A stretch of 64,000 nt of DNA. It comes from Marinoscillum sp. 108 (GTDB lineage: Bacteria > Bacteroidota > Bacteroidia > Cytophagales > Cyclobacteriaceae). Position numbers and translations under genes: made by a program. Of the stretch, positions 3 through 37,800 are shown piece after piece. Within the stretch, counting starts at the first letter, position 1. Each line of letters begins with the position of its first letter. The DNA is taken from positions 1 through 64,000 of the forward strand of contig NZ_LR734808.1 of NCBI RefSeq assembly GCF_902506655.1, in the 5' to 3' direction. The notes beneath the pieces are model-generated. The model was not told the origin of the DNA. It made no database searches and saw nothing but the letters and a program-made list of their open reading frames with translations.

Positions 3-2471
3 ACCTACACTGCTGGTGATGGCAACCTGGTTGACAATGGAGATGGCACCTGGAGCCTGACGATCCCTGCAGGCAATGCGTTGACGGAAAACACTTATTC
101 GGTGACCGCTACGGTAACCGATGCCGCTGGCAACAGCACCAGTGATGCTACAGATGGAGAATTAACCATCATTCTGGAGGGAGTGGATACAGATGGAGAC
201 GGTATTCTGGATGAAGACGAAGACACGGATGGAGATGGAGATCTTGCCAACGATGACTGTGATGCTGATGGTACACCAAACTACCTGGACGCTGATCCCT
301 GTGATACAGACGGAGACGGCCTGGATGATAGCGAGGAAGACACAGACGGAGACGGTAATCCATACAACGATGATTGTGACGAGGATGGTACTCCAAACTT
401 CCAGGATGCAGACACTTGCGACGATGGCACCGATACCGACGGTGACGGTGTAACGGACGTAGAAGAAGACATTGATGGCGATGGTGATTCTACCAATGAT
501 GATTCCGATGGTGACGGTACTCCGGATTATCTGGACACAGATGATGATGGCGATGGTATCCTGACAGAGGATGAAGACACTGATGGAGATGGAGACCCTA
601 CAAATGACGACTGTGATGCTGATGGTACGCCAAACTATCTGGACGCTGATCCCTGTGATACAGATGGAGACGGCCTGGATGATAGCGAGGAAGACACAGA
701 CGGAGACGGTAATCCATACAACGATGATTGTGACCAGGATGGTACTCCAAACTTCCAGGATGCAGACACTTGCGACGATGGCACCGATACCGACGGTGAC
801 GGTGTAACGGACGTAGAAGAAGACATTGATGGCGATGGCGATCCTACCAATGATGATTCAGATGGTGATGGTACACCTGATTACCTGGACACCGATGATG
901 ATGGCGATGGTGTCTTGACAGAGGACGAAGACACGGATGGAGATGGAGATCTTGCCAACGATGACTGTGATGCTGATGGTACACCAAACTACCTGGACGC
1001 TGATCCATGTGATACAGATGGAGATGGCCTGGATGATAGCGAGGAAGACACAGACGGAGACGGTAATCCATACAACGATGATTGTGACCAGGATGGTACT
1101 CCAAACTTCCAGGATGCAGACACTTGCGACGATGGCACCGATACCGACGGTGACGGTGTAACGGACGTAGAAGAAGACATTGATGGCGATGGCGATCCTA
1201 CCAATGATGATTCAGATGGTGATGGTACACCTGATTATCTGGACACAGATGATGATGGCGATGGTGTCTTGACATTGGATGAAGACACTGATGGAGATGG
1301 TGATCCTACCGATGACGACTGTGATGCTGATGGCACGCCAAACTATCTGGACGCTGATCCATGCGACACAGACGGAGATGGTCTGAACGATGAAGAAGAA
1401 GACACCAACGGAGATGGTAATCCATACAACGATGATTGTGACGAGGATGGTACGCCAAACTTCCAGGATTCGGATAGCTGTGATACGGATGGGGACGGTA
1501 TCCTGGATGAGGATGAGGACCTGGATGGCGATGGAGACCCTACCAACGATGACTGTGATGCTGATGGTACACCAAACTACCTTGACGCTGACCCATGTGA
1601 TACAGACGGAGACGGCCTGAACGATGAAGAAGAAGACACGGACGGAGACGGTAATCCATATAATGATGATTGTGATGCCGATGGTACTCCAAACTTCCAG
1701 GATGTGGATAGCTGTGATTCTGACGGAGACGGCATCCTGGATGAGGATGAGGACCTGGATGGCGATGGAGACCCTACCAATGATGACTGTGATGCTGATG
1801 GCACACCAAACTATCTGGATGCTGATCCCTGCGACTCAGACGGAGATGGTCTGAATGATGCGGCGGAAGACACAGATGGCGATGGTAATCCATACAACGA
1901 TGATTGTGATGCTGATGGCACTCCAAACTTCCTGGATTCAGATAGTTGCGATACAGATGGAGACGGGGTACTGGATTCAGATGAAGATGTGAATGGTGAC
2001 GGGGATCCTACCAATGATGATACTGATGGCGATGGTATCCCTGATTTTTTGGATACAGATGACGATGGTGATGGAATAGATACAAAAGATGAAGATGGCG
2101 ATAGAGACGGTGATCCTACCAACGATGACTGTGATGGGGATGGCACTCCAAACTATCTGGATACAGACCGATGTCCAAAAGTAGAGCCTCGTAGAGGGTT
2201 TACGCCTGATGGCGATGGTATCAATGACTTCTTTTACATCAAAGACATTGAGAATTATCCGAATAACACTGTTCAGATTTTCAATAGATGGGGAAATAAG
2301 GTATTTGAAATCAAAGGATATGACAACCAGAATAATGTATGGAAGAGTGATGTCAACTCTGGTTTGAGAATAGGAAGTGACAATAATGTACCTTCTGGTA
2401 CCTACTACTACCTGATTCAACTTGGGGACGGTAGTGATCCGATTTCAGGTTTTGTGGTCGTGAACAGATAA
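3..2471 (+). CDS. Asp-rich Ca-binding repeat protein with type-B T9SS C-terminal domain (5' partial)
   Basis: The reading frame is open from the first bases, so the N-terminus lies outside the window. The visible part starts in a bacterial Ig-like domain (DGTWSLTIPAG, then TDAAGNST). About 600 residues of Asp/Gly-rich calcium-binding repeats follow (DTDGDGLDDSEEDTDGDGNP type), resembling thrombospondin-3 or EF-hand-like loops. The last ~95 residues (GFTPDGDGINDFF, IFNRWGNKVFE, SGTYYYLI) are the gliding-motility-associated C-terminal domain of TIGR04131 type, the type-B sorting signal of the type IX secretion system. The protein is therefore expected outside the outer membrane, with the repeats stiffened by calcium. 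The repeats are near-identical at DNA level, which implies recent duplication. It is probably an adhesin or surface filament, but no enzymatic domain is visible and the ligand is unknown. Confidence 0.9.
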   Translation, partial: TYTAGDGNLVDNGDGTWSLTIPAGNALTENTYSVTATVTDAAGNSTSDATDGELTIILEGVDTDGDGILDEDEDTDGDGDLANDDCDADGTPNYLDADPCDTDGDGLDDSEEDTDGDGNPYNDDCDEDGTPNFQDADTCDDGTDTDGDGVTDVEEDIDGDGDSTNDDSDGDGTPDYLDTDDDGDGILTEDEDTDGDGDPTNDDCDADGTPNYLDADPCDTDGDGLDDSEEDTDGDGNPYNDDCDQDGTPNFQDADTCDDGTDTDGDGVTDVEEDIDGDGDPTNDDSDGDGTPDYLDTDDDGDGVLTEDEDTDGDGDLANDDCDADGTPNYLDADPCDTDGDGLDDSEEDTDGDGNPYNDDCDQDGTPNFQDADTCDDGTDTDGDGVTDVEEDIDGDGDPTNDDSDGDGTPDYLDTDDDGDGVLTLDEDTDGDGDPTDDDCDADGTPNYLDADPCDTDGDGLNDEEEDTNGDGNPYNDDCDEDGTPNFQDSDSCDTDGDGILDEDEDLDGDGDPTNDDCDADGTPNYLDADPCDTDGDGLNDEEEDTDGDGNPYNDDCDADGTPNFQDVDSCDSDGDGILDEDEDLDGDGDPTNDDCDADGTPNYLDADPCDSDGDGLNDAAEDTDGDGNPYNDDCDADGTPNFLDSDSCDTDGDGVLDSDEDVNGDGDPTNDDTDGDGIPDFLDTDDDGDGIDTKDEDGDRDGDPTNDDCDGDGTPNYLDTDRCPKVEPRRGFTPDGDGINDFFYIKDIENYPNNTVQIFNRWGNKVFEIKGYDNQNNVWKSDVNSGLRIGSDNNVPSGTYYYLIQLGDGSDPISGFVVVNR
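193..1254 (+). repeat. Three tandem 354-bp coding repeats (118 aa each)
   Basis: Near-identical units begin at about 193, 547 and 901. Each encodes three ~39-residue Asp-rich subrepeats (DCDADGTPNYLDADPCD, then DGTPNFQDADTCDD, then DGTPDYLDTDDDGDG). Differences between units are scattered substitutions such as DEDGTPN/DQDGTPN and DSTNDD/DPTNDD. The period keeps the reading frame. Confidence 0.85.
1310..2010 (+). repeat. 234-bp coding repeats (78 aa) following the 354-bp repeats
   Basis: After the third long unit the period changes to about 234 bp, which is two instead of three ~39-residue subrepeats. Equivalent positions lie near 1343, 1577 and 1811. The shorter period is explained by loss of the CDDGTDTDGDG-containing subrepeat. 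Confidence 0.75.
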
Positions 2472-2509
2472 AATGACCGAAGTGAGTTGATGTTAAGATC
2501 GACCAATAA

Positions 2510-2541
2510 AGCCTTCTGATTTTTTATCGGGAGGCTTTTTT
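2510..2541 (+). terminator. Intrinsic terminator after the Asp-rich repeat protein
   Basis: The stem AGCCTTCTGAT / ATCGGGAGGCT (with G-T wobbles) is followed by a T run and lies 39 bp after the stop codon. The same hairpin occurs three more times downstream, ending each small-RNA unit, so this copy may be the edge of the repeat array. Confidence 0.8.
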
Positions 2542-2610
2542 TATACTCATTTGACAATGTTTGGAGACCAGAAACGGCTGACTCAGGCACTTCACCCAAT
2601 GCTTTGAATG

Positions 2611-2677
2611 ACTCAACGAGTAATAGCTGCCACTCAACGAGTGGATGATTTTGGGGTAAGAACAAACCTTACTTTTG
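2611..2677 (+). promoter_or_regulatory. Twin-palindrome operator and promoter, copy 1
   Basis: ACTCAACGAGT occurs at 2611-2621 and again at 2632-2642, 21 bp centre to centre. TTG at 2651-2653 and TACTTTTG at 2670-2677 fit the Bacteroidota promoter pattern TTG/TAnnTTTG with a rather short 16-bp spacer. Inside the spacer GTAAG (2656-2660) and CTTAC (2668-2672) form a second inverted repeat. With a start near 2682 the palindrome centres fall near -66 and -45, positions typical of an activator. The 21-bp spacing matches what is known for LytTR-family binding sites. Confidence 0.65.
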
Positions 2678-2681
2678 AGGT

Positions 2682-2753
2682 ATAGATTCATGGTTGGATA
2701 TGATCTATGGTTGGGACTAATGGAGCCTTCCGATTTATCGGGAGGCTTTTTTT
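2682..2753 (+). ncRNA. Putative small RNA, copy 1 (~72 nt)
   Basis: The region runs from about five bases after the TACTTTTG box to the end of a T run. The body can fold ATAGAT (2682-2687) with ATCTAT (2703-2708), leaving ATGGTTGG (2690-2697) in the loop. A second ATGGTTGG lies at 2707-2714, next to the terminator stem AGCCTTCCGAT / ATCGGGAGGCT (2724-2747). No ribosome-binding site or conserved ORF is apparent. The assignment as an RNA gene is inference from promoter, body and terminator architecture. Confidence 0.6.
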
Positions 2754-2822
2754 ATGCTGGTTTGACAATGTTGGGAAACCAGAAATGACTGGAGTCGTGC
2801 ACTCTACCTTATCCTTTAAGAT

Positions 2823-2889
2823 ACTCAACGAATAAAACCTGCCACTCAACGAGTGGATAATTTTGGGGTAAGAACAAACCTTACTTTTG
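2823..2889 (+). promoter_or_regulatory. Twin-palindrome operator and promoter, copy 2
   Basis: ACTCAACGAAT at 2823-2833 and ACTCAACGAGT at 2844-2854 keep the 21-bp spacing, although the sequence around them differs from copies 1 and 3. TACTTTTG is at 2882-2889. Retention of the two sites within otherwise diverged DNA argues that they are functional. Confidence 0.65.
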
Positions 2890-2893
2890 AGGT

Positions 2894-2965
2894 ATAGATT
2901 CATGGTTGGATATGATCTATGGTTGGGACTAATGGAGCCTTCTGATTTATCGGAAGGCTTTTTTT
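2894..2965 (+). ncRNA. Putative small RNA, copy 2 (~72 nt)
   Basis: The body is the same as in copy 1 up to the terminator. The hairpin reads AGCCTTCTGAT / ATCGGAAGGCT (2936-2959), keeping pairing through a single wobble, and is followed by T residues to 2965. The inferred length equals that of copy 1. Confidence 0.6.
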
Positions 2966-3033
2966 ATGCTCATTCGGCAATGTTTGGAGACCAGAAACGG
3001 CTGACTCAGGCACTTCACCTAATGCTTTGAATG

Positions 3034-3100
3034 ACTCAACGAGTAATAGCTGCCACTCAACGAGTGGATCAATTTGGGGTAAGAACAACCCTTACTTTTG
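3034..3100 (+). promoter_or_regulatory. Twin-palindrome operator and promoter, copy 3
   Basis: ACTCAACGAGT is at 3034-3044 and 3055-3065, again 21 bp centre to centre. TACTTTTG is at 3093-3100, with the GTAAG-N7-CTTAC inverted repeat just before and overlapping it. Confidence 0.65.
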
Positions 3101-3104
3101 AGGT

Positions 3105-3176
3105 ATAGATTCATGGTTGGATATGATCTATGGTTGGGACTAATGGAGCCTTCTGATTTATCAGAAGGCTTTTTTT
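3105..3176 (+). ncRNA. Putative small RNA, copy 3 (~72 nt)
   Basis: The body matches copies 1 and 2. The terminator stem AGCCTTCTGAT / ATCAGAAGGCT (3147-3170) is perfect here. Across the copies the stem changes by wobble-compatible substitutions, as expected for a hairpin under selection. The unit ends about 70 bp before the hybrid kinase gene. Confidence 0.6.
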
Positions 3177-3246
3177 ATATATATCTATTAATATTGCCCT
3201 AATTGTACGGTGCTCATTATCTTTAATCTTTAGCGAAGACTATTGA

Positions 3247-6200
3247 ATGAGAATACCTGAAATACCTGCCAACGAGCAAAGCCGACTGGAAGCACTACGT
3301 GAACTGGAGATTCTCGATACCCTCCCGGAAGAAGAGTTCGATAATATTACCAAATTGGCCAGTGAGATTTGTCAGGTACCCATCTCTCTCATTACATTCA
3401 TAGACGAAGGTCGGCAATGGTTTAAATCACATCATGGACTCGATGTAGAGTACACCTCGAGAGAAGTAGCTTACTGCGCTCATGCGATCAATGACCCCAA
3501 AGAGATTCTGGAGGTGCACGATGCCTATGAAGATGAACGCTTTCATGATAATCCTTTGGCCGTAGGGGAACCTTTAGTGAGGTTCTATGCCGGTGTGCCT
3601 CTGGTGGATCCGGAGGGGCATGCATTGGGTACACTGTGTGTGATAGATCATAAACCCAATCAGCTTTCGATAGGTCAGAAGGAGGCACTGAGAACTCTTG
3701 CCCAGCATGTGATGGCTATTCTGAACGTGCGTAGTAAAAACATCGAGTTGATAAAGAGTCAACAGAAGTTTCAGGACTTGGTCAACCACATGGATGATAT
3801 GATCTATGAGCTGGACTCAAATGGGTACTTTAAGTTTTCGAACATCAAGCTTCAGAAGCTCAGCGGGTACAGTGATCAAGAATTGTCTCAGATGTCCTAT
3901 TTGACGCTCGTTAAGGAAAATGCCAGATCAGAAATGATAGCTTTTTACAATGAGCAGAGGACCAAAAAGCAGTCCAAAAGCTATTATGAATTTCCAATGA
4001 TCACACGCCAGGGAGAGGAGCGAATGATTGGTCAGAATGTGGTCATAGATTTTGACCAACATGGGAAACTCTCTCGTGTGATGGCCGTGGCAAGGGACGT
4101 TACAGAATTGCATGAGCAACAGCGCGTATTTCGACTGCTTTCAGAAAACTCAAAAGATCTCATTTGTCTGCATGAACCCGACGGTACATACATCTATGTG
4201 TCCTCATCGGTAAAAGATCTTTTAGGGTTTGATCAGGAGGAAATGATCGGTCGGAATCCGTACGATTTCATGCACCCCGAAGATAGGGATCGCCTAAGGG
4301 AGAATCCTCATGCCCAAACGCTCAAGGGAAAAGAAATAGGAGGGGTTCAATATCGCATGAAAACAAGTGCTGGGAATTACCTGTGGTTGGAGTCGTACAC
4401 CAAACCTATTGTGATTGACGGGGAAGTAGTGTCCTTTCAGACTTCATCCAGAGATATTTCTAAACGAAGGTTCAATGAGCTACAAGTTCAGAAGAGTAAG
4501 GAGAACATTGAAGCCCTCATAGAAAATACAGAGGACGCCATCTGGTCGGTGGATAGAAAATTTCGATATAAGATAGCCAATGGTGCTTATAAAGCATTGA
4601 TCAAATGGCTGGTTGGTCGTGAACCTGAAATTGGTGAAAGTGGTCTGGATGTTGGTGATAAAATGTTTCAAGACCTGCTTCAGCATTATAGAAAATCCCT
4701 TGACGGGAAAAAGTTCAATATCGAATACCAGCTGACTCATAATGGAGTGAGGCGGTATTTTCAGAAGTTTTTTAATCCCATAAGGAATCAGGAAGGAATT
4801 ATCACCGGGGTTTCTGTATTTGCAAGGGACATCTCCTACGAAAAGAAAATACTAAGAAATGCAGATAGGTATCGGGAGGGATTGCAGCTTCTTAATATCA
4901 TCTTTTCCAATACAAGTCTGACAATGGATCAGCAGATTGGAGAGGCCTTGAAAATCTCATGTGAGTACCTCAAAATGCCTTCCGGGATTATCGGTCAGGT
5001 AGAAAAGGGCTTTGTGACGATTAAAAAGTATTATTCCTCAGAGCCTGTACCGATCAAGGAGGGAGATAGGTTCCCATTCGAAAATACTTTTAGTCAGTTA
5101 ATCTACGATTATGGAAGAACACTGGCCATCGAGAACGTGAGCCAGTCAGATTTCAAAGAAGTCAGTAGCTTTAAAGCTTTCAAGGTAAGTTCCTTTATAG
5201 GTGCAAGTATCTCGGTAAATGGAGTTCGCTATGGTACGATAAGTTTTGGCTCTACCGAACAGCGTGGAGAATTTTTCGATTCCAATGAAACGGACTTTGT
5301 GGATATTCTGGCGGGCTGGATAGGATTTAATATTGAAAAGCAGTTATACGAGAAGCGATTGCGCTCCGAGCAGGATGTACTTCGCGCGTTTGTTCACTCA
5401 GCCCCTGCAGCCATTGCCATGTTGGATGAGAATCTGACCTACCTGGCCGTGAGTAGTCAGTGGAAGGTGGATTATCAGTTGGGAGACCGTGATCTCATCG
5501 GAGCGAATCATTATGAGATATTTAACAACATACCTGATTCTTGGAAGGAGGCCTATGAATCAGGCCTTCAGGGCAAGGAATCCCGAAAGGAAAGGGAGCT
5601 TTTTGAGATGGGCGGCCAGACTCGCTGGCTGAAATGGGAAGTGCGGCCGTGGTATACTTCTAACAAAGAAATTGGCGGGATCATAGTTTTCACCGAAGAT
5701 ATCACGAGGCAAATCACACAGGAAGAAGAGCTGAAACTCGCGAAGAATGAAGCCGAGAAAGCATCACAAGCGAAAGAATTTTTCTTGTCCTCTATGAGCC
5801 ATGAGATCAGAACTCCAATGAATGCCATCATTGGTATTTCGAACATCATGCTGTATGAAAACCCCCGGGCCGACCAGTTGGAAAATTTAAAGCTGTTGAA
5901 GTTTTCTAGTTCTAATCTCCTGGTATTAATCAACGATATTTTGGATTTTAATAAAATCGAAGCGGGTAAAATGGAGCTGGAACTGATTGATTTTAATCTG
6001 AAAGAGGTGGCCATGAATGTTTATCAGACCATGCTGATAAGGGCTAATGAGAAGGGGCTGGTGTTCTTGTTTGATTATCAAAATGGCTTACCCGAAAACT
6101 TTGTTGGCGACTCTGTTAGGATCACCCAAATCCTCACAAACCTGTTGGGAAATGCCATCAAATTCACGGAGGAAGGCATTGTGAAGTTTAAAATTGAGGA

Positions 6201-7245
6201 GAAGAAACGATTAGGGAAGGAGGTTATCCTGGGCTTTACGGTGACAGATACAGGAATTGGTATTCCTAAAGATAAGATTGATGCCATTTTCGAAAATTTC
6301 ACCCAAGCGAGTACCAACGTGGCTAGAAAATTTGGTGGCACGGGGCTGGGCTTAGCCATCACCAGAGAGCTCCTTAAAATCATGGGTTCGGACGTGACTG
6401 TAGAAAGTGAAGAGGGAGAGGGGTCTGTTTTTACTTTTGACCTGAAGTTGCCCATTGGTTCTTTGAAGTCCCTCCAGCAGGATTATTCGGAGATAAGTGC
6501 TGTAGCACCTGAAAGTTCGAATACCGGAATTCGTTTACTAGTGGCGGAAGATCACAAAACAAACCGGGAGATACTTGCCAAATTTCTAGATAGGTGGGGT
6601 TTTAAGTATGATTTCGCTGAAAATGGACTTGAAGCCATTCAAATGGCAAGTAAGAAGAATTACAGCATGATTCTCATGGATATTCAAATGCCCGTAATGG
6701 ACGGTTTTGAAGCAACCAGAGAAATCAGGAAAATGAAAAATCCGCAACTAAAGGATATTCCAATTTATGCACTGACAGCCTCTGTATTGCTGGGAGTGCA
6801 GGAGAAGGCAATCACTGCCGGAATGAGCGGATACATTAGCAAACCATTTGATCCAGACGAACTTTATGCCAAAATCACGAGTGAATCCATTCGACTTGAG
6901 TATGAAACGCCTGTGGTAACCAGGGATGTACTGAGTCATGAAGCGATCACACAGATGAGCCTCGGAGATGAGGAATTCAAAGAGGAACTCTACAGATATT
7001 ATTCATCCGAATTTCACAGATTGCTTGGTGATCTGCATAGCGCCTTGGAACAGGAAGATCGTGATATGAGACATGCCAGTATTGAAGAACTTACAAAGCT
7101 TAACAAAGGTGAGATCATGCCAGATTTAACACCACTGCTTCAGGCGCTCAATGATGAGCAATCTGCGGCTGATCTCAAAAGAATTCCTGCTGCTCTTTAT
7201 GAATTGATACATACTTTGACTGCTCGTCATGATAGGGGAAGCTGA
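3247..7245 (+). CDS. Hybrid sensor histidine kinase, GAF-PAS3-GAF-PAS-HisKA-HATPase-REC
   Basis: This is a 1332-aa cytoplasmic hybrid kinase with no membrane segment. Domains in order are GAF (~20-165), three PAS (~170-540), GAF (~540-700), PAS (~708-828), HisKA with H-box SMSHEIRTPMNAI (His852), HATPase with N-box NLLGNAIKFTEEG, DTGIGIP and GGTGLGLAI (~952-1068), and a receiver with LLVAEDH and MILMDIQMPVMDG (Asp1145). The ~110-residue tail after the receiver is helical and Hpt-like in position but lacks an HxxK phosphorylation motif. Phosphate would therefore need an external Hpt, and the next gene supplies one. A TATCTTTA box at 3218-3225 lies ~20 nt before the start. The gene directly follows the small-RNA array. 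Confidence 0.93.
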   Translation: MRIPEIPANEQSRLEALRELEILDTLPEEEFDNITKLASEICQVPISLITFIDEGRQWFKSHHGLDVEYTSREVAYCAHAINDPKEILEVHDAYEDERFHDNPLAVGEPLVRFYAGVPLVDPEGHALGTLCVIDHKPNQLSIGQKEALRTLAQHVMAILNVRSKNIELIKSQQKFQDLVNHMDDMIYELDSNGYFKFSNIKLQKLSGYSDQELSQMSYLTLVKENARSEMIAFYNEQRTKKQSKSYYEFPMITRQGEERMIGQNVVIDFDQHGKLSRVMAVARDVTELHEQQRVFRLLSENSKDLICLHEPDGTYIYVSSSVKDLLGFDQEEMIGRNPYDFMHPEDRDRLRENPHAQTLKGKEIGGVQYRMKTSAGNYLWLESYTKPIVIDGEVVSFQTSSRDISKRRFNELQVQKSKENIEALIENTEDAIWSVDRKFRYKIANGAYKALIKWLVGREPEIGESGLDVGDKMFQDLLQHYRKSLDGKKFNIEYQLTHNGVRRYFQKFFNPIRNQEGIITGVSVFARDISYEKKILRNADRYREGLQLLNIIFSNTSLTMDQQIGEALKISCEYLKMPSGIIGQVEKGFVTIKKYYSSEPVPIKEGDRFPFENTFSQLIYDYGRTLAIENVSQSDFKEVSSFKAFKVSSFIGASISVNGVRYGTISFGSTEQRGEFFDSNETDFVDILAGWIGFNIEKQLYEKRLRSEQDVLRAFVHSAPAAIAMLDENLTYLAVSSQWKVDYQLGDRDLIGANHYEIFNNIPDSWKEAYESGLQGKESRKERELFEMGGQTRWLKWEVRPWYTSNKEIGGIIVFTEDITRQITQEEELKLAKNEAEKASQAKEFFLSSMSHEIRTPMNAIIGISNIMLYENPRADQLENLKLLKFSSSNLLVLINDILDFNKIEAGKMELELIDFNLKEVAMNVYQTMLIRANEKGLVFLFDYQNGLPENFVGDSVRITQILTNLLGNAIKFTEEGIVKFKIEEKKRLGKEVILGFTVTDTGIGIPKDKIDAIFENFTQASTNVARKFGGTGLGLAITRELLKIMGSDVTVESEEGEGSVFTFDLKLPIGSLKSLQQDYSEISAVAPESSNTGIRLLVAEDHKTNREILAKFLDRWGFKYDFAENGLEAIQMASKKNYSMILMDIQMPVMDGFEATREIRKMKNPQLKDIPIYALTASVLLGVQEKAITAGMSGYISKPFDPDELYAKITSESIRLEYETPVVTRDVLSHEAITQMSLGDEEFKEELYRYYSSEFHRLLGDLHSALEQEDRDMRHASIEELTKLNKGEIMPDLTPLLQALNDEQSAADLKRIPAALYELIHTLTARHDRGS

Positions 7246-7282
7246 ACTGGGAATGAGGGGTACTGAACATACATTGAGCAAC

Positions 7283-7328
7283 ACTCACCGAGTATCCACT
7301 CTTCAGGAGTTTTTAAGCGGTATTTTTG
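7283..7328 (+). promoter_or_regulatory. Possible promoter with two ACTC/GAGT palindromes
   Basis: ACTCACCGAGT (7283-7293) and ACTCTTCAGGAGT (7298-7310) share the half-sites of the small-RNA operators, but the spacing is 16 bp and the core differs. TATTTTTG at 7321-7328 fits TAnnTTTG. The second palindrome followed by TTTTT could also be a weak terminator for the kinase gene. Confidence 0.4.
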
Positions 7329-7344
7329 AACAAAAAACCAGGAG

Positions 7345-8610
7345 ATGCCATTAACACTCGAAGAGATAAAGTACCAACACCTTAAAGGTTCCACTCAGAT
7401 TCTTTTGGCATCTTTTGATGGCAAAGTCTTGGCATCATGCAATACCCTGGTACCGATTCCTGTTGGATATGACCTGTTTGATTCTAATTCATTTTTGCAA
7501 AATCCCTCCCTCAGGGACCAGCTGGCATTGAATGAAGACCTGTATATACATGGTGTTCGTCTAAATCTGGAGGGTACAGAAGCTATTTACGATTTACACT
7601 TGAGTCTCTCTTCCACGGGATCCAATGAGGATCAGATCATCTTTTTTCTGGAAGATCGCACGCGTTCGGTCACCTTCGTCGAAGATGAAGAAAGTGAAGA
7701 AAAATTGCATGAGTTTATCTTAAAAATATCCACTCCGCTGGATATTCTGAAAGAATTATCCCTTTCAGACAAAGGTGGAGAAGGTAAGTCACCTGCCAGG
7801 GGGCTCATTATGGCTTATTTTGATCGGTTCATTCACGGAGTGCATCATTCACAGATCAATTTTCCAAGTGAGGAAGTGCCTTTTCGGGTAGAACATATTA
7901 GTGTAGCGGTAGAGATGTGTTTTGAAAGTATGATGGAATCAAGGGGGCTTAAGCTTGCCTCTGTGGTGGGATTCGAATCCAAGTTTTTGATTGGTGACCG
8001 TTTAGGTATTCTTCAGGTGGTTTTTCAGGTTTTGGGGTTCCTGCTGACAGATCAGAAAAGTGGACATGTACAGGTGAATTTTAACTATCTCCCCAAAGAA
8101 GAACAATTAGAAGTTGAAATATCAGGATCCCCAGACAGCAATGTCTATGGGGATATAGTAAAGGCCATGGAAAATGAAGGTGAATTTGGGATTTCTGCTG
8201 AAATGACGCTGCAGTTATTGTTTGATTGCCGTGCAGTAGCCTACCATGAGCCGGTTCAGGTGGCCAATTTGACCTTGAGTAAGAAGGAATTTCCATACCT
8301 CTTCGGAATTACCGGGGGAGATCTCTCACTGGTCAAGGATATTTTTCAAACCATACTCGTTTCACTTGCTATGGATATGGATGATTTTGAGAAAGCCATA
8401 GCTCAGGAAGACTGGGAGTTGATCGGGAGGGTTGCCCATAAGATGAAACCCAATTTTTCGAGCCTTCAACGAAAGGATATAGCTGAATCGCTACAGCATA
8501 TCGAGGAGATTACCACTGGTCAGGACCTTGCCGGGCTGGAGGAGAAACTCAAAGATTTTATTAGAAGTGCTAACGAAGCGCTGGAGAATTTAAAAAAGTA
8601 TAAAGTATGA
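7345..8610 (+). CDS. Pseudo-histidine kinase with C-terminal Hpt domain
   Basis: This is a 421-aa protein whose last ~110 residues are a histidine phosphotransfer domain: AHKMKPNFSSL places the phospho-accepting His at residue 365. The N-terminal ~115 residues look PAS-like. Residues ~122-135 (FILKISTPLDIL) align by eye with a HisKA H-box (SHEIRTPMNAI) that has lost its His. Residues ~213-255 (GDRLGILQVVFQVLGFLL) resemble the DSVRITQILTNLLGNAI region of HATPase domains, without the N-box Asn or glycine-rich boxes. I read it as a degenerate kinase retained as a phosphotransfer hub between the upstream hybrid kinase and the two downstream receivers. Its stop overlaps the next start (ATGA), showing co-translation. 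The Hpt call is firm; the pseudokinase alignment is inference. Confidence 0.8.
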   Translation: MPLTLEEIKYQHLKGSTQILLASFDGKVLASCNTLVPIPVGYDLFDSNSFLQNPSLRDQLALNEDLYIHGVRLNLEGTEAIYDLHLSLSSTGSNEDQIIFFLEDRTRSVTFVEDEESEEKLHEFILKISTPLDILKELSLSDKGGEGKSPARGLIMAYFDRFIHGVHHSQINFPSEEVPFRVEHISVAVEMCFESMMESRGLKLASVVGFESKFLIGDRLGILQVVFQVLGFLLTDQKSGHVQVNFNYLPKEEQLEVEISGSPDSNVYGDIVKAMENEGEFGISAEMTLQLLFDCRAVAYHEPVQVANLTLSKKEFPYLFGITGGDLSLVKDIFQTILVSLAMDMDDFEKAIAQEDWELIGRVAHKMKPNFSSLQRKDIAESLQHIEEITTGQDLAGLEEKLKDFIRSANEALENLKKYKV

Positions 8611-8972
8611 TCAAGCAAATCAGGTGCGTAGTAATAGATGATGATTTTGCCTCAAGAGCTATCCTAAAAGGATTGATTCGGCAAGATGAGAGGCTCATTC
8701 TCGTAGAAGAGTGTTCGGGATCAGCTGATGGAGCAGTATCGATTACCAAACACAAGCCGGATCTTGTTTTTCTGGATTTGATGATGCCTGGTTTGGATGG
8801 ATATGAAGTTTTGGAGGTGCTGGATTATATGCCTAAAATCATTGTGGTTACCACAGAGCGGAATTATAAATCCGAAATATTCAGTGATCGGATTTCAGAG
8901 TACCTCTACAAGCCTGTAGAAAGTTTAGAAATGTTTACAAAAGCGGTAGATCAAGCAATGAAAACTTATTAG
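8607..8972 (+). CDS. Single-domain response regulator (CheY-like)
   Basis: This 121-aa protein is a bare receiver domain: acidic pocket VVIDDD at the N-terminus, phosphoacceptor Asp57 in LVFLDLMMPG, switch Thr in VVTT, and the conserved Lys in LYKPVE. No output domain is present, so it should act by protein contact or as a phosphate sink or shuttle. It overlaps the Hpt gene by four bases and lies 10 bp before the LytTR regulator. It is a likely acceptor of phosphate from the Hpt protein. Confidence 0.9.
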   Translation: MIKQIRCVVIDDDFASRAILKGLIRQDERLILVEECSGSADGAVSITKHKPDLVFLDLMMPGLDGYEVLEVLDYMPKIIVVTTERNYKSEIFSDRISEYLYKPVESLEMFTKAVDQAMKTY

Positions 8973-8982
8973 ATTTGATTTA

Positions 8983-9681
8983 ATGGAACGGCTTACATGT
9001 ATTGCAATAGATGATGATATGGTGGCTTTGAAGATTGTTTCTTCACTTGTTGAAAAAACGGATTTTCTGAAGTTGGTAGGTACCTATCAAAACTCAATCA
9101 AAGGCGCAGCGGCTATTGTCGAATTGAAGCCGGACATCGTTTTTCTGGATGTTCAAATGCCAGACCTAACAGGCATGGAGATTTTAGCAAGTCTCCAGTC
9201 AAAACCTCAGGTTATTCTGGTGACCTCTCAGGAGAAGTTTGCCGTGAAGGCGTTTGAGTTTGATGTAGCAGATTATTTGGTTAAACCAATAGAGAATTTT
9301 GGCCGGTTTCTTAAAGCCGTCACCAAAGCCAAATCGAACATTGATGACAAGGAGCCTATCTCTTCTGATTCTAAGAATCTTTTTGTGAAATCAGAATCAC
9401 TCCTCATTAATCTGAATCTGAAGGAAATTCTTTATGTGGAAGCTTACGGAGATTATGTGAAGATCCATACGAAAGAAAGGACTCATGTGGTGTACGGTAA
9501 ATTGAAAGATACAGAAGAAAGCCTCCCCGAAAGTGAATTTGTGAGAGTGCATCGCTCTTTCATAGTGCGTATTGATAAGATTAAAAATATAGATCAGGGA
9601 AATCTTCAGATAGAGGATAAAATCATCCCTGTGAGTGCTTCTTACAGATCCCATCTGCTGGAAAGCATAAAGACTTTATAA
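8983..9681 (+). CDS. LytTR-family DNA-binding response regulator
   Basis: The 232-aa protein has an N-terminal receiver (IAIDDD; phosphoacceptor Asp56 in IVFLDVQMPD; Lys in LVKPIE) and a C-terminal LytTR DNA-binding domain (~130-230), recognisable from EILYVEAYGDYVKIHT, FVRVHRSFIVRIDKI and the closing VSASYR. LytTR proteins bind pairs of ~9-bp direct repeats two helical turns apart. It is the only DNA-binding protein in this phosphorelay cluster, and the three small-RNA promoters upstream carry twin sites at exactly that spacing, so they are candidate targets. Its phosphodonor is probably the Hpt protein. Confidence 0.92.
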   Translation: MERLTCIAIDDDMVALKIVSSLVEKTDFLKLVGTYQNSIKGAAAIVELKPDIVFLDVQMPDLTGMEILASLQSKPQVILVTSQEKFAVKAFEFDVADYLVKPIENFGRFLKAVTKAKSNIDDKEPISSDSKNLFVKSESLLINLNLKEILYVEAYGDYVKIHTKERTHVVYGKLKDTEESLPESEFVRVHRSFIVRIDKIKNIDQGNLQIEDKIIPVSASYRSHLLESIKTL

Positions 9682-28800: not shown

Positions 28801-31800
28801 ATGAAGACCAAGATTATCACCGCATCGATTGTAGTTTTATCCCTGATTGCTAATGTGTTGGGTGCTCAGGAGATAAGGAAGGCTACTGAATCTGAAATTT
28901 CCACCTATAAGGAACAACTGAGTAAAAAAACGGAGGAACACAGGACGGACCTGACGGCTAATCCTTCTGCCAATACTACCAATGTGGCACAGTCAACTCC
29001 CAAGGCTCAGGAGCAGACCTCTGCCCAGAAGATTGAGGAGAAAATGGCCCTTGAAAATACTGATAAGTCTATTGAATACCGCGAGCTGGCGCTAGAACGT
29101 GTTATTAAGGAGTTCAATGAGAAAAAGCAAAAACCAATGCAGGATGTGGGACAGCCTTCATTTGAGCGGGTGACCCCAAAATCGGCGGAGGATTTAAAGG
29201 AGTCTGGCGATGTTTTTTTAGAAGATGAAGATCTAAAAGCCCTTAAACTTTCCATCCACCAAAAAAATATTGATGATCAAAAAAGACTCATAGAAAATGG
29301 CTTTGGTTCGGCTAATGAACGAACCTCAGTGCGCAACACCAAAGCGGCTGAGGTTAAACCCACTAGCACCAAGGATGACTCATGGTATCAATCTCTTACT
29401 GGAGGCTCTCAATCTCATAATATGGGTACATGGGCAGATCGGGAAGAAGAACTGAAGCGACAGGCCAGAGAAAGATCCCAACAAAGGGTCACCAGGGATT
29501 CCAGACAAGCCGAACGCATCAGTTTTCAAGCTGACTCTACGGTGACTTCCGATTCACTGGCTTTGGTGGATTTATACTTTGCGTTGAATGGGGATTTCTG
29601 GTACGATAATTCCAACTGGCTATCCGGCCCCGTCAATACCTGGGCAGGTGTTGACTGGGCTAGTTACGAATACGAAGAGGTAGGAGATACAAGCTCCACC
29701 TTCAAAACAGTGGTGTTTGTGACAGGATTGACCCTATATGATAATAATCTTTCGGGTGCTTTACCAGCTTCTATCGGTGATTTGGATTCATTGTCTTATT
29801 TGAATTTGGGTTATAATTCGATTACCGGGGATCTGCCAGCAGAAATAGGCAACCTGACCAAGCTAAGTTACCTTGATATAGGAGGTAATTTCTTCACCTC
29901 ACTGCCTGGTACAATTGGTAATCTTACAAACCTGGATGGTTTAAGTATTTGGAATAGAACTTATGATAACGAAGGTTATTTTGTTACAGATGGAATGACT
30001 GATCTGCCCACAAGTCTGTGGACGCTTACTCAGATTAACAGTCTGGATCTGGGAGGACATCAATTAAGTAGCATTCCAGGTGAGTTGGGCAACCTTACCA
30101 ATCTTGGATACTTATGGCTATGGGGTAACGCTCTTCAAAGCCTTCCTACATCCATTGGTAATCTGGCGAACCTGGAGGTTTTATATCTGGATGGTAATCA
30201 AATCACATCTGTTCCTTCTGAGATCGGCAGTCTTACCAAACTAAGAGAATTGAATTTAGGTCAAAACCAACTGACCGAACTTCCGGAAGCTATCGGAAGC
30301 CTGGATTCGCTTCGTTATTTGTATGCTCACAACAATCAACTTACGTCGCTGCCTACAGGGATAGGAAGCTTACCGAAATTGGAATACATTGGTCTTTGGC
30401 ACAACTTCCTGACCACTGATATTTCCGATTTCTTTGGGTTAAGCACTTTGCAATCATTGGTTATTTATGACAATCAACTCACAGGAACACTCGATGGTGT
30501 TTCAGGATTAACCAATATTCATGAACTTTCTATCGGGTCAAATCAAATCAGTGGGAGTATCCCACCGGAAATTGGATCGCTAACAAATTTGAATTACCTG
30601 TGGGTGGATAATAACCAGTTAAGTGGTTCACTACCTGCCGAACTTTTCGAGTTACCTGCCATTCAGCAAATTGATGTTGGCTATAATCAGATTACAGGAG
30701 AATTCCCCGTGACTTCAGGAACAGAGTCTTTATACCAGTTAAGATTAGGTGGAAATGGAATCACCGCACTCTCCTCAGGTATTGGAAACTTCCCAGGCCT
30801 GGTTTCATTGTCTATCGAGTTCAATGAAATTAGCGGTTCTTTGCCCGCGGAATTAAGTGGGGACACATCCCTCGTTTATTTTTATGCCTATCGTAATCAG
30901 CTTTCAGGCACTATTCCTGAATCTTACTCTAGTCTGACTCATCTGGCGGAACTGGTGCTTGACGATAACCTGTTCGACGGGGAGCTGCCAACTGCTATCG
31001 GTAGCTGGACGGAAATGTCCCTCTTCAGTATCTCTCGAAATGGCTTTGTTGGAGCCGTTCCTGCGTCATTGAATAATCTGGAGTTTTTGCAGGAGTTATG
31101 GATAGACAATAACCAACTCACCAGTCTTCCCGATTTGAGTGGACTATACTCTTTGTCGGGTGTTTGGGCGTATAACAATTACTTTGAGTTTGATGACTTT
31201 GAGCCGTTAATGCAGACCTACGCCGGGTTCAATTTAGGACCTCAGTATATCCCGGAACCTACTTTTGAGATTGTATCTGAGGGAACGGAGGTATTAATTG
31301 ATGCTACTGTTGGTGGAAGCCAGAATCACTATCAGTGGTACTTCAACGGAGAGTGGCTGAACGCAGGTGATACTTCAGTACTGGTGATTTCAAATCTGAA
31401 TCGTGAATCCGCTGGTACCTACTGGTGCGAAATTTATAATGATTCCGTCACCAATCAGACGGGTCTCCATTTGTATAGTGGGGATCAGACCTATTGGATT
31501 TCGGCACCCGTATCCCCAGGCGATTCGCTTGCCCTGGTGGATATATACAAGGCCACCCGTGGCAGGGACTGGTACAACGCCAACAATTGGCTGAAGTCGC
31601 CGGTGGCGATGTGGGAAGGTGTATTTCTGAAAGATGGGAGGGTGACCAAATTAGATTTGTATGATAAAAATATGCAACGTGGCTTACCTCCTTCTATTGG
31701 GGATTTGGACGCCCTGGAGTGGTTAAGTTTATACTATAATCCTGGCCTACAATCCATACCCGGGGAGTTGTATTCTCTTACCAACCTCCATTATTTGGAT

Positions 31801-34800
31801 TTGGACATTACAGGGATTACTAAAATTTCGCCATCTATTAGTCTTCTCACCAACATGGATACCCTTTGGATTGGGGGAAACAATTACGAAACCAAAATTC
31901 CCGTAGAGGTTTTCAGTCTTACGAAACTCAAAGTACTGGAAATGGCTGGTGCCGGATTTAGAGGAGCTATTCCAAATGAAATAGGATCATTGACTGAGCT
32001 AGAAGCCTTGTGGATCAGTAATATGCCAAAAGTGAGAGGAGATATCCCTGCTTCAATGGCATCCCTGTCTAAATTGTCGTTTTTGAACTTGTCCGGTACA
32101 CCTTTTACAGGAGGGCTGGAGAATATTGCCGGGATTACCAGTCTGAAATCGCTATTTCTCTACAACAGCCCGCTTGCTCTGACCACTTTGCCTTCCAGCT
32201 TGTCGGGCCTGACGAATCTTGAGAGCCTCAATATGAGTGGTGGAGATTTTTCTGCTGGACTTCCTGCTGTGATTTGGGAGTTCAACCAGTTGAAGAGGTT
32301 GACCCTGGCTTATATGCAGATAACTGAGGTGCCGGCAGAGTTATCTGCCCTGAGTCTTGAATACCTCAATATTGGAAATAATTCTATTACTGGTGGGCTT
32401 CCTGCAGATATGAACGTGGATCAAATGAAGTATATCTACTTTCATAACAACGAGATAGATGATATTTCGGTGTTGGAAAATGCCAGCTTATTAGAGACCT
32501 TGATAGGATATAATAACCGTCTGGACTTTGCAGACCTCACTCCACTGGTCTCTTATTTTGAAAACAATCAGGGATTCTTTGATGTCTCTTATCAACAGCC
32601 TTTGCCAGTCTCTTCTGACTACATTCAATTGTCCGTAGGAGAGTCACTTAATCTCAGTGTAGATATTACACCTGATAGCATTACCTATATTGATTGGTTT
32701 CATAATGGGTCCTATGTGGGCTCTGGTACTACATTCACTATAGATTCAGTCACCAATCCACATTCAGATGGGTACTATGAAGCATATCTCTATCACGACG
32801 TGATCTCATCTCTGGCAGGGTTACAGCTTTACACTCCACCTGTGGAAGTACAGGTAGTGGAAGCAGTATTGGAGGCAGATTCTTCAGCTTTGGTTGCATT
32901 TTACAATACTATAGACAACTCATCCGAGCGATTGTATAATTGGCTAGAGGGTCCGGTGGAAACCTGGGAAGGGGTAGAAGCTTACGGGGGCAGGGTATAT
33001 GGACTTAGCCTGTATGGGCTGGAAGGTAGCTTATCCGGAACTGCCCTGTCAGGTTTGGATGCTTTGTCTTTCATTTCGATATACGGAGGAAACCTTGCGG
33101 GGGGCATTCCAGCTGAAATCTTTTCATTACCCAACCTTAATTTTATTGACCTGGCATACAACAACCTATCGGGAAGCATACCTCTGGAAATCGGTAACGC
33201 TTCTCAATTAGGCTATATTGGGTTTTCCGGAAACTTACTGTCAGGTGCTATCCCTTCAGAAATTGGCCAAATAGGCAATCTTAATGAGCTCTTCTTGGAT
33301 AACAACCGCCTGACCGGAGCAGTGCCTGAGAGTTTTAATCAGGTCCAGTGGGGTGCTCTTGGGTTGGACAGAAACCATCTGGAGGATCTTCCGGCAGGAC
33401 TGGATACCGCACTGATGTATGCTTATCATGTGAACTTTGAATATAATCAGTTTGATTATGAAGATTTAGCACGTGCCTCGGGTAACACTGTATATTCAGA
33501 TTATACTTATGCTCCTCAGGAAAGCACACGGGATATTTACTTCACGGGTGATGCCACGGTGGGTGGTACAGTTACGCTTCATGCTGAGCGTCAGGACCCC
33601 AATGACGAGTTTTACTGGTATAAGGCAGATAAGAATTCCTATGAGCCCTATTATTTTGAGTTTGGGTATACTGGTACTGATTCTACATTCACCTTTACCA
33701 TAGATTCAGACTGGGATCAGACCAAGTATATGGCTGTCGTAAGAAATTCGGGCTATAAAAACGGTGATTATCGCTTCCTTTCTAGCCAGTTGGTTGTAGA
33801 TCCATATGAAAGAAGATTTGCATCCTCCATGTCGGCTAGTCCTATTGAGGCGAGTAGCTCGGGATCTGACATAGGCGGAGTGGGAGCACCCGATACACCA
33901 CCTATTATGGAGGGTGAAGGCTGGGAATGGTGGCTCTATGATAGCTGGTGGCATAATGCCATTGAGCCCGATTTGGACACCTTGAAAATGTATTATTCAG
34001 ACAGTGCCATTGCCATCGATTATGTGAGACTTCATTCTCCTGGCGGTGAACTAAATGTCACCACAATGACCCTTCATGGCACTGGTGGTGAAAAACTTGT
34101 AGTACCTGTTTATCGGGAAATTTATCAACATGAAAACCAGCTGAAATTTCCGAAAACAAGTTTTTCGGTGAATCAGATAGACTTTGCTGTGACCAATGGT
34201 TCAGTTGATGCTATAGAAATTGGTGATTCAGGAGCCGATGGGATTGATCCACCGATGTTAAGTGATTTTTATACGGAAATAGGTAGGGATTACCTTTTTG
34301 TAGAAGTGATTAATCCGGGATTTGCGGACTATATCGTTCTGGAGAGAGGTACTGATGGGGTGAATTTTGACGTGATTGATACCATAGGTTTTACCGGCTG
34401 GTATTTCGATGCGGTTTCACCAGGCACTTACTATTATAGAGCAAAAGCAGGTTATCCTACTTTCGGAGCTGAGAGTGGTTACTCAAATGTCCTGGAGACA
34501 GGTAATTGTAACCCTGTAGTTCCTTTGGATAAGGTTTGGGCTGGTGTGAGTACTGGCTTGGGTGATTATGAAGGAATCACGAGCACCAGGGACTCTGTGT
34601 TTATTTATGAATCATGGAGCTACGCCACCTTCAATGTGTCGGATATGACAGCGGGCTGGTATGATCAATTCTGGGGCTATCATGAGGAGCTTGGTTTCTT
34701 TAGGGAGAAGTGTGATAATTTGAGTGGCTATTCTGAATACGGACAAGTATCTGAGGTCAGTGCAGTGTATGAGAATGACACCCTTTATTTGGAATGGAAG

Positions 34801-37800
34801 GATTTTGGAAACAACCTTCATGTAATATCTAAATTCTACGTGATAGGGGATGCTCCCGAAAATGAGCTTTACGAATTGTATGAGCCTGAAAATGTTACTG
34901 CTTATCTAATGAGCAGTGCCTCAATAGGGCTTACCTGGAACTCTTCTGATGGCGCCAGCGAATTTGTCATTCAAAGGTCAGAAGGTGATGCCACCAATTT
35001 TGCGAATGTAGATACCGTAACCAATCAGCTAAAATATGCAGATGTCAATACACTAGACGGTAGACACTACTACTACAGGGTGATTGCTAAGGCAGGTAAT
35101 CTTACTTCATATCCTTCAGAAGAAGCTAATATCATTCATAAAGCATCGCTATTTGAACCTGTTTCCAACGCAGTGACAGAAGATATTACCAGAACGAGTT
35201 ATGGCGGGTCATGGGCAGATTTTGATGGAGATGGCGATGATGACCTTTATGTCACAAATGCATTTGAGCTTGCAGCGAATTTCCTTTATGAAAACACGGG
35301 AAATGGTACTTTCAAAAAGATCATAGGGACGATAGCCACTACGGAAATCGGATTTACCAGATCTGCATCATGGGGAGACTATGACAATGACGGGTTTACG
35401 GACCTCTTCGTGCCATTTAATGGAGAAGGAGATAGAGTTTATAGAAATACCGGAAGCAAGAGTTTTGTGAAAACGAACGCCGTTGTGGCTACCACTACGA
35501 CAGATTTTGGATCAGAATCGGGTGTTTGGGTGGATCTGGATAATGACGGAAACCTTGATCTCGTTACTTCTGCAGGTTTTGTCTTTACCAATGATGGTGC
35601 CGGCGCTCTGGCTCTGTCAGCTACATTAGAATCTCCTGATGGTTTGCTTCCTGACTTGCCAATACTTATCTGGACAGTGAGCAATGTTGATTTTGATAAT
35701 GATGGTGATCAGGATATCTATTTCACAGGAGACCAGCAGAACATGCTCTTTGTGAACGATGGCACCGGTCAGCTATTCTATGTGGAGAACACCATTTCTA
35801 ACGATTTTGTAAGAAGTCGGGGCTACACCTGGGCAGATTTCAATAATGACGGTTTCCTTGATTTGATCACTGGCGACCGAAATACAGAGGCACTTGGTAT
35901 GTACCTCAATGATCAGAGTGGTGGTTTTGAGTTTTTGCATATTACTGCGCTGACCAATGACTATGATGGAGAAGATGATGTTCAATTTGGTAGAGGATAC
36001 ACCAGTGGTGACATGAATAATGATGGTTGGCAAGATCTGGTCTGGACCATAGAAGATAGGGCTTATATTCTCTATAATGCCGGTAATCTCACTTTTGACC
36101 TGGTAGATGTAGATGAGCAGGCATTCCCGGCTACCAACATTTTCTCGCACGTTTCACTGGCTGATGTGAATGGAGATGGTGCATTGGATATTTTCTTGCC
36201 TAATCAGGATTTCAATGGACACAACTATATCTATGTGAACAATGTGAAAACCAACAACTGGATTAGCGTAAAGCTGAAGGGAATTGAATCCAATAGATCC
36301 GGTATTGGTGGACGAGTAAGGGTGAAGGCGAACAATACCTGGCAGGTTCAGGCCGTGACTTCTCAAAATGGTATTAGCAGTGGTAATAGTTTGCGAACAG
36401 AATTCGGAATAGGAACCGCCACGGTGGTTGATAGTATTGCCGTGGATTGGCCATCGGGTCTTACCACCTATGCACTGAATGTTACTCCAAATAAGTTCAT
36501 GACCATGGTGGAGGTTCCAGTGGCATCCGGACCTACAGTAAATGAGGGCGATTCTACAGCCCTGGTAGCACTCTATAATGGTACTGCTGGTGCTGGTTGG
36601 ATTAAGAATGAAGGCTGGTTGGAAGGATCTCCACTCGCATGGGAAGGAGCTAACTTTGATGACAATGGAAGGCTGGTTTCACTGATTCTTAATGATAACA
36701 ACCTGGTTGGAACGATTCCTACAGAGATTACCAACCTTACTGCGTTGGAGGTGCTGGATCTTAGTGGAAACCAACTAACCGGAAAAATTCCGGAAGCACT
36801 GGGTAATATGACCACTCTTTATAACCTTTCGTTGAATGATAATCAACTGCAAGGAACCATACCAGCTTCTGTGGGGTCTTTGGTCAATCTTCAAAACCTG
36901 GATTTGTACAACAATAACTTCCTGGGAGAACTACCTGCTACTTTAGGTAGCTTATCTGAATTGAGACAATTTGAGATCCATAACAATGGCTTCATCGGTT
37001 TTGTGCCAGCCAATATTGGTACGTTGACCAATTTGCAAGTATTGCGTTTGGATCACAATGATTTTGAAGGACCTCTACCTGAAGGATTGGGAGGCATGGC
37101 AAGTTTGCAAGTACTTTATGTGAATGACAACCACTTCACAGAGTCACTTCCCGCTACTCTCGGAGGGCTTAGTGAGCTGTTGCAGTTGAAGGTTCAGAAT
37201 AATGAGTTTTCAGGGGATCTGCCTGCGAGCTTGTCTGCGCTTACAGGTATTCAGTACATAGATATTAGTAATAACCTCTTTTCTGGCTCATTGAGTCCAT
37301 TGGCTGAGTTGGATACCATTTATTATCTAAACGCTGACAGAAACAGGTTCACCGCTCTTCCCGATTTCGCTTCTAATTCTGCTGATACCATTTATGTAAG
37401 GAATAATTCGCTTGATTTCGAAGGGTTTGAGTTGAACGCGAGTTTGATCCAGGATGGAAGGCTTTTGGTTAACCCTCAGGATTCTCTTTTTGCCAGAGTA
37501 GACTCACTTCACAATGTTGGGGTCGGGATTGAGATCTTCTTCGAAATAGGAGGAGCCTCAAATAGCTATACCTGGAAGTTTAATGGCGAGGTGCTCGAAT
37601 CCAGTGATGGCATTGATGTTTTTGAGAGCTCAGTGTTGATTGCGAGTCCTGATACTCCTAACGAAGGTGAATATATTTTGGAGATTACCAATGAAAGCTT
37701 CCCGGATGTGAAGCTGGTAACCAGGCCATTTAATCTGAAACTATCTTCACTTGAGCGGGACAGACAAGCTTTATTAGCATTTAAAGATGCTGTGGATAAA

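Follow-up and report, generated by a model that had tools for sequence, protein, structure and literature searches.

Three repeats of about 212 bp lie between two protein genes of Marinoscillum sp. 108, close to the start of the 64,000-nt stretch of contig analyzed here (the window), and they raise the question of whether they are small RNA (sRNA) genes and, if so, which regulator drives them and what their RNAs do. The original prediction, made from the letters of the sequence alone, had described three tandem sRNA genes, each with its own twin operator, promoter and terminator. Our analysis confirms the array, supports by comparison three predicted sRNA genes of that composition tied to the neighboring phosphorelay, and points to an sRNA family that is apparently undescribed, shares one operator and is likely controlled by the phosphorelay. 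The reading that we favor, and that we consider probable, is a circuit in which the phosphorelay acts through a LytTR regulator on sibling, trans-acting sRNAs that each carry two GGUUGG motifs.

Three predicted sRNA genes in tandem

The repeats follow a gene with a CHU_C type IX secretion signal (81-2471, plus strand; listed from its first in-frame TTG, it may begin before the window) and precede a gene for a hybrid sensor histidine kinase with GAF, PAS, HisKA, HATPase_c and REC domains (3247-7245, plus strand). As predicted, three copies of 211-212 bp were found in tandem at 2530-3176; self-comparison placed them in register at 2523-2755, 2735-2967 and 2946-3178, with copies 2 and 3 being 76% and 95% identical to copy 1. 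The two boxes expected in each unit are spaced by 21 bp in 3/3 units and lie, on the plus strand, at 2611-2621 and 2632-2642 (unit 1), 2823-2833 and 2844-2854 (unit 2), and 3034-3044 and 3055-3065 (unit 3). The palindrome ACTC-N3-GAGT is exact in five of these six boxes, all reading ACTCAACGAGT, whereas the distal box of unit 2 is imperfect (ACTCAACGAAT), so that this part of the prediction needs correction for one box. Six such palindromes occur in the window, five of them inside the array, against an expectation of 0.65, and six or more were reached in 0/100 shuffles.

Each unit also has the promoter of its own that had been claimed, with the -7 element TACTTTTG starting 27 bp past the proximal box in all three (2670-2677, 2882-2889 and 3093-3100, plus strand). 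The flavobacterial -7 box is positioned at -12 to -5 in the portion of PMC9723704 available to us, and when starts were placed by this rule they fell at 2682, 2894 and 3105, giving predicted RNAs of 72 nt each (2682-2753, 2894-2965 and 3105-3176, plus strand), the equal length foreseen. Every RNA would consist of a 5' hairpin with a GGUUGG loop, a linker with GGUUGGGA, and an intrinsic terminator, whose stems lie at 2722-2749, 2934-2961 and 3145-3172. From the -7 element through the left arm of the terminator, the three copies are identical, and the differences between their terminators are A-U, G-U and G-C exchanges, in keeping with the claim that pairing is retained. Terminator-like sites are frequent at 2300-3400 (9 vs. 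0.7 in shuffles), and the two copies that were folded, copies 1 and 3, had z-scores of -5.0 and -4.1. Directly behind the CHU_C gene, and in register with the array, lies a fourth terminator of the sRNA kind (2508-2541, plus strand), which is possibly the remnant of a fourth copy that now ends the upstream gene. Searching the window with Rfam (release 15) gave no match at gathering, and at a lax threshold the region 2540-3190 matched only PyrR, RcsR1 and OmrA-B, all far below gathering and none credible.

Recurrence in sister genomes

The original prediction named absence of the RNA body from all relatives that keep the kinase locus as its refutation; on checking, the body recurred in Marinoscillum furvescens, where the kinase locus is kept. 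Six genomes of the genus were compared and are labeled here where needed: G000 is the window genome, G001 M. furvescens, G002 M. pacificum, and G004 and G005 are MAGs. A covariance model built from the three window copies with their terminators (R1) recovered three M. furvescens loci of the same layout among many generic terminators. What this model returned was mostly hairpins with T runs: among the 11 matches inspected in other genomes (L129-L132, L135-L138, L141, L142 and L147, with L133, L139, L143-L145 and matches without loci left out), boxes and GGUUGG motifs were present only in L131, L137 and L141.

A second model (R3), built from three window and three M. furvescens copies and spanning the proximal box to the linker without the terminator, was run on 295 family genomes with stricter filters and on the six genus genomes with laxer ones. 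At E ≤ 0.05, matches occurred in 3/295 genomes, namely the window genome (3), M. furvescens (7) and G094, the last of which (E 0.037) had neither boxes nor the GGUUGG pair and was set aside as chance. The laxer run returned the same 3 + 7 copies and nothing else below E 0.1, so the model search revealed no further copy in the window's own genome; four of the seven M. furvescens copies lay outside the training set and were still recovered at E 8.6e-16 to 2.8e-8. A DNA search with one unit against 59 relatives gave only short partial matches outside the array, the best of which (E 0.002) was a terminator (L010 and L011 inspected). Palindrome pairs elsewhere in the genome, with up to two mismatches, were likewise rejected: L034 and L035 lie inside genes, and L032 and L033 are intergenic but showed no suitably spaced TAnnTTTG.

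The seven M. furvescens copies are spread over six contigs among unrelated genes, and their predicted RNAs measure ~76-82 nt vs. 72 nt in the window. None of them lies beside the kinase, which counts against the favored reading, and all seven are on contigs other than that of the kinase operon. Copy L170 sits after a gene that, by eye, resembles the CHU_C gene of the window in its repeats and last residues, linking the copies of both genomes by position. In G003, R3 found no match at E ≤ 5; its kinase match is partial (6-419 of 718) and an HPt match is lacking at E ≤ 1e-8, consistent with the favored circuit. By contrast, G005 speaks against it, since the operon is present there and the sRNA was not recognized, the best R3 match (E 0.113) lacking boxes and amounting to a hairpin plus T run. 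In the same genome, two CAACGAG cores 21 bp apart (4696 and 4717; L058 4696-4723, minus strand) lie upstream of the kinase and precede a divergent PAS-like gene (3931-4647).

M. pacificum and the MAG G004 each have one structured, sRNA-like element directly before the kinase. These two elements are 88% alike over 83 nt, keep terminator pairing through changes in both arms, and have AACG-like repeats ~22 bp apart (by eye); their 5' hairpin displays GUGGUUAGG, with the motif present once, in the loop, as GGUUAGG. R3 missed them at E ≤ 5, just as model R2 missed the window RNAs. Given that neither model connects the two groups, we regard these elements as diverged orthologs of the window RNAs on the basis of place, layout and the GGUUAGG loop, and not of sequence statistics.

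Structure and invariant motifs of the RNAs

Covariation was counted on ten of the 12 sRNA sequences, three from the window and seven from M. furvescens; the G002 and G004 elements were left out because MAFFT alignments that included them put the stem out of register. Across the eight pairs of the 5' hairpin and the seven of the terminator, 99.3% of cells were standard pairs, and four pairs had double changes. Covariation amounted to 0.357 vs. 0.229 in shuffles and was reached by 0/500 of them, and when the stems were slid out of register, paired cells dropped to 29-64%. Other counts were weaker, with the number of double-change pairs reached by 36/500 shuffles and that of further pair types by 457/500, and with only two species behind the ten sequences, the alignment cells are not independent. 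At column pair 9-37, the double change is also seen inside M. furvescens, where L170 has it.

The predicted +1 is the base that opens the second hairpin pair (column pair 6-40) in the window copies and in 5/7 M. furvescens copies, and lies one base earlier in L169 and L170. A start at the second pair would place the outermost U-G pair just outside the RNA, a detail at odds with the favored reading. All ten copies of the two species agree in the loop sequence UGGUUGG and the linker sequence UGGUUGGGA; these motifs are partly paired in some predicted folds, so it is not certain that they are fully single-stranded. Comparison between the species shows the sRNA genes as predicted, their limits, the operator-promoter layout that they share, their structure and the variation in copy number.

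A phosphorelay operon with the same promoter layout

Downstream of the kinase, and also on the plus strand, follow genes for an HPt phosphotransfer protein (7345-8610), a stand-alone receiver protein (8607-8972) and a LytTR response regulator (8983-9681) that we propose as the activator acting on the boxes. The LytTR domain of the regulator was matched at E 6.1e-22, and the protein shares 65-74% identity with its four orthologs. Full-length kinase orthologs were present in four of the five other Marinoscillum genomes searched. A protein search over named genomes gave 18 loci, four of which spanned the whole query at 42-52% identity: M. furvescens DSM 4134, M. pacificum MRN461, a Marinoscillum MAG and a MAG titled Rickettsiales. 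The order kinase, HPt, LytTR is kept in G001, G002, G004 and G005, and the small receiver gene was found in the ORF list (at least 110 aa) of G001 and G005 only. PBTY01000084.1, a contig titled Rickettsiales bacterium, bears the Marinoscillum-type operon, and its record title is probably wrong.

In the sRNA copies of both species (10/10), the box cores are exactly 21 bp apart, and 27-28 bp separate the proximal box from the -7 element. The M. furvescens copies keep the operator as a direct repeat with the core CAMCGAG and have often lost the palindrome; conservation as direct repeats rather than as palindromes suits the LytTR regulator. VirR and RgaR both belong to the LytTR proteins. In the parts of the reports available to us, VirR boxes are described as imperfect direct repeats on the same helix face and at a fixed position to the promoter, with VR-RNA among the targets (PMC2838878), RgaR repeats precede the sRNA gene spoZ, with critical G residues at -51 and -72 (PMC10602386), and the LytTR protein AgrA sits as a dimer on a pair of direct repeats that precede its promoters (PMC4227749). 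Likewise, 10/10 sRNA copies have, upstream of the promoter, a pair of direct repeats separated by about two helical turns, and the linked LytTR regulator has a box at the internal promoter of its own operon in 5/5 genomes.

This internal promoter lies before the HPt gene, where AMCGAGT, 27-28 bp and TAnnTTTG recur in all five orthologous operons, each with a LytTR ortholog. In the window, the box ACTCACCGAGT (7283-7293, plus strand) stands 27 bp before the -7 element TATTTTTG (7321-7328, plus strand), with a weak distal half-site, ACTGAACATAC, at 7262-7272 (plus strand). Shuffles of the five kinase-HPt gaps matched the pattern in 0, 0, 0, 0 and 1 of 20000 cases, for a pattern that was written after the gaps had been viewed and with the HPt start of G004 taken as the ATG that matches the G002 start, downstream of the box. 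Two observations count against the favored reading here. The distal half-site is weak at all HPt promoters, with 3/8 matches to CAACGAGT in the window and 1-4/8 at the 21-bp offset in the other four, and the box with a -7 element lacks specificity on its own, given that a looser AACGAR pattern gave 28 sites in six genomes vs. 44 in the reversed control. Still, the sRNAs share their promoter layout with the HPt-LytTR genes, which suggests the LytTR protein as the activator of the two sets, and we infer both its binding to the boxes and activation as the direction of control.

A box-like promoter was also seen elsewhere in the window's genome, at G000:C1:1884793-1884834 (minus strand, L098), where ATTTAACCAGA, 10 bp, ACTCAACGAGT, 27 bp and TATGTTTG precede a short frame that was read by eye as starting MFEKLFGKK and that may be a protein-coding gene of the regulon.

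Proposed circuit and alternative explanations

We propose that the hybrid kinase, the HPt protein and the receiver form a multistep phosphorelay that phosphorylates the LytTR regulator. The regulator, as a dimer, would bind the direct-repeat pair and bring RNA polymerase to the TAnnTTTG promoter that lies 27-28 bp further on, thereby turning on its own HPt-REC-LytTR genes and every sRNA gene copy simultaneously. Activation of all copies together would let one signal yield a large and fast RNA output, and the array and the dispersed M. furvescens copies do have the look of an amplifier that boosts a signal pathway through small RNAs. Given that M. furvescens has the genes standing alone at unrelated places, the RNAs probably act in trans. 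Their two GGUUGG stretches would most likely serve as redundant seeds that pair, close to where target mRNAs start, with sequences of the CCAACC type. That they pair with mRNA rather than titrate a protein is a guess, favored because the doubled motif in loop and linker resembles LhrC, with titration as the main rival. TCCCAACC is not enriched in the window (4 vs. 2.9 expected, three of the four being the sRNAs themselves), and we therefore propose no target.

Titration would mean that the RNAs are decoys whose two GGUUGG motifs capture an RNA-binding protein other than CsrA, in the fashion of RsmY, RsmZ and CsrB. We see this as possible but the less likely option by some way: a doubled short motif that is invariant in 10/10 copies of two species would serve a decoy well, as would the many gene copies, but G002 and G004 have the motif only once, as GGUUAGG in the loop, and no candidate for the titrated protein can be named. 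CsrA (PF02599) itself was over the cut-off in 0/6 genus genomes, compared with 3/14 control genomes; sub-threshold matches in three of the six reached E 0.018 and 18 bits at best vs. a cut-off of 27. CsrA as the titrated protein is thus excluded at the family cut-off, and since it stays below that cut-off in 6/6 genomes, this is not an Rsm system.

It is unlikely that the boxes are bound by a regulator other than the LytTR protein of the operon. Their assignment as LytTR boxes comes from comparing sequences, and in the window copies ACTC-N3-GAGT is palindromic, as for a helix-turn-helix dimer; several M. furvescens boxes, however, lose the palindrome and keep the direct repeat, and the box is kept at the internal promoter of the operon in 5/5 cases. 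We consider it very improbable that the repeats act in cis, as tandem promoters and attenuators setting expression of the kinase at 3247. The RNA genes do stand directly before the kinase in G000, G002 and G004, but each unit is ended by its own terminator, and in M. furvescens 7/7 copies are off the kinase-operon contig, with no copy upstream of that kinase.

Even less credible, and already largely refuted, is the reading of the units as a mobile or repetitive element (MITE or REP-like) with regulatory look-alike parts, which the dispersal of copies in M. furvescens and their tandem arrangement in the window might suggest. When the seven M. furvescens loci are compared in pairs, the RNA averages 0.91 identity, the proximal box 0.90, the -7 element 0.87 and the distal box 0.70, and the mean falls to 0.47 for the upstream 60 bases, 0.36 between the boxes, 0.49 in the spacer and 0.49 for the downstream 60 bases, near the shuffled controls for those four stretches (0.47, 0.29, 0.46 and 0.50). 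That conservation stops at the operator pair, promoter and RNA speaks against a larger element having transposed recently, the compensatory changes in the stems speak against a mobile element of any such kind, and no record of the phage collection matched the array at E 1e-5. That the units encode a small protein can be virtually dismissed: the window copies do contain a frame that opens with ATG (ATGGTTGGATATGAT...), but the corresponding codon is GTG in the seven M. furvescens copies, where the frame lasts for 4 codons in four of them, 12 in two and 26 in one, and the double changes track the stems.

Relation to known sRNA systems

For the favored circuit, from phosphorelay through LytTR regulator to sibling sRNAs, the best reading by analogy is that it works like the csRNAs, LhrC and VR-RNA/SpoZ, yet is a member of none of these. 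Near-identical stand-alone genes with a common operator, as in sibling sRNAs, are represented by three window and seven M. furvescens copies, all with box pairs. Several sRNAs downstream of a phosphorelay are familiar from Qrr (LuxO) and RsmY/RsmZ (GacA), the likeness that the original prediction had drawn. The likeness does not extend to membership, with Rsm out by the CsrA result and Qrr not recognized, given the lack of an Rfam match and a promoter of the TAnnTTTG type. The lack of an Rfam match equally sets the window RNAs apart from the csRNAs, VR-RNA and SpoZ.

The streptococcal csRNAs (CiaRH) are, in the part of PMC4211561 at hand, siblings present in 2-6 copies by species, in tandem or distal, under one response regulator; the window RNAs resemble them in all of this except that the proposed regulator is a LytTR protein fed by a phosphorelay, and that motifs and phylum are others. 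Listeria LhrC is a multicopy sRNA tied to a two-component system (LisRK), and, in the sections of PMC4132741 available to us, its UCCC motifs in loops and single strand are redundant sites. One short motif repeated in loop and single strand is what the window RNAs share with it, whereas the C-rich UCCC binds G-rich sequence ahead of the lapB start codon and the window motif is GGUUGG. VR-RNA (VirR) and SpoZ (RgaR) of clostridia are likewise sRNAs driven by a response regulator on two direct repeats, but they are described as single sRNA genes and belong to another phylum.

Within Bacteroidota, FopS of Bacteroides thetaiotaomicron is a 14-copy sRNA family with sigma-ABfr promoters (PMC11697453, as far as available to us). 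FopS RNAs are described there as a single-stranded 5' part plus terminator, with an as yet unknown regulator only suggested, whereas the window RNAs have a conserved 5' hairpin and a defined operator adjoining a phosphorelay, and do not share the FopS architecture. The claim that the phylum has no described equivalent therefore has to be narrowed: multicopy sRNAs are known in it, and a phosphorelay-controlled set was what our literature search did not find. Sibling sRNAs under one response regulator, LytTR-driven sRNAs and multicopy Bacteroidota sRNAs are each already known; their combination, phosphorelay/LytTR sibling sRNAs in Bacteroidota, was not found in full-text literature searches that covered few subscription papers. 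To our knowledge, sRNA control in Bacteroidota has few worked-out cases beyond FopS/GibS and Rfp18.

The locus offers a compact, testable circuit, with phosphorelay, proposed regulator, operator and RNA output all in view, and its output RNA is multiplied differently in sister species (three tandem copies in the window, seven dispersed ones in M. furvescens), indicating that sRNA copy number can shift within one genus while each copy retains its operator. The phylum of the window is described as being without Shine-Dalgarno sequences in the part of PMC6847099 available to us, which raises the question of how a GGUUGG sRNA would control translation there. A more far-reaching version, which we find doubtful, is an independently arisen Bacteroidota counterpart of Gac/Rsm or Qrr: a phosphorelay-LytTR circuit that would scale its output by sRNA gene number (1, 3 or 7 by species) and whose doubled GGUUGG would bind a whole class of mRNA leaders or an RNA-binding protein with global reach, the phylum lacking Shine-Dalgarno control and these genomes CsrA.

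Elsewhere in the window, giant proteins are encoded at 28801-39429 (3542 aa; LRR, Ig and FG-GAP) and 45321-52133 (2270 aa; cadherin and FG-GAP), both ending in a secretion-system C-terminal sorting domain. The 868-aa protein at 39584-42190 has a C-terminal Peptidase_S74 chaperone of endosialidase domain, which is otherwise known from phage tail fibers.
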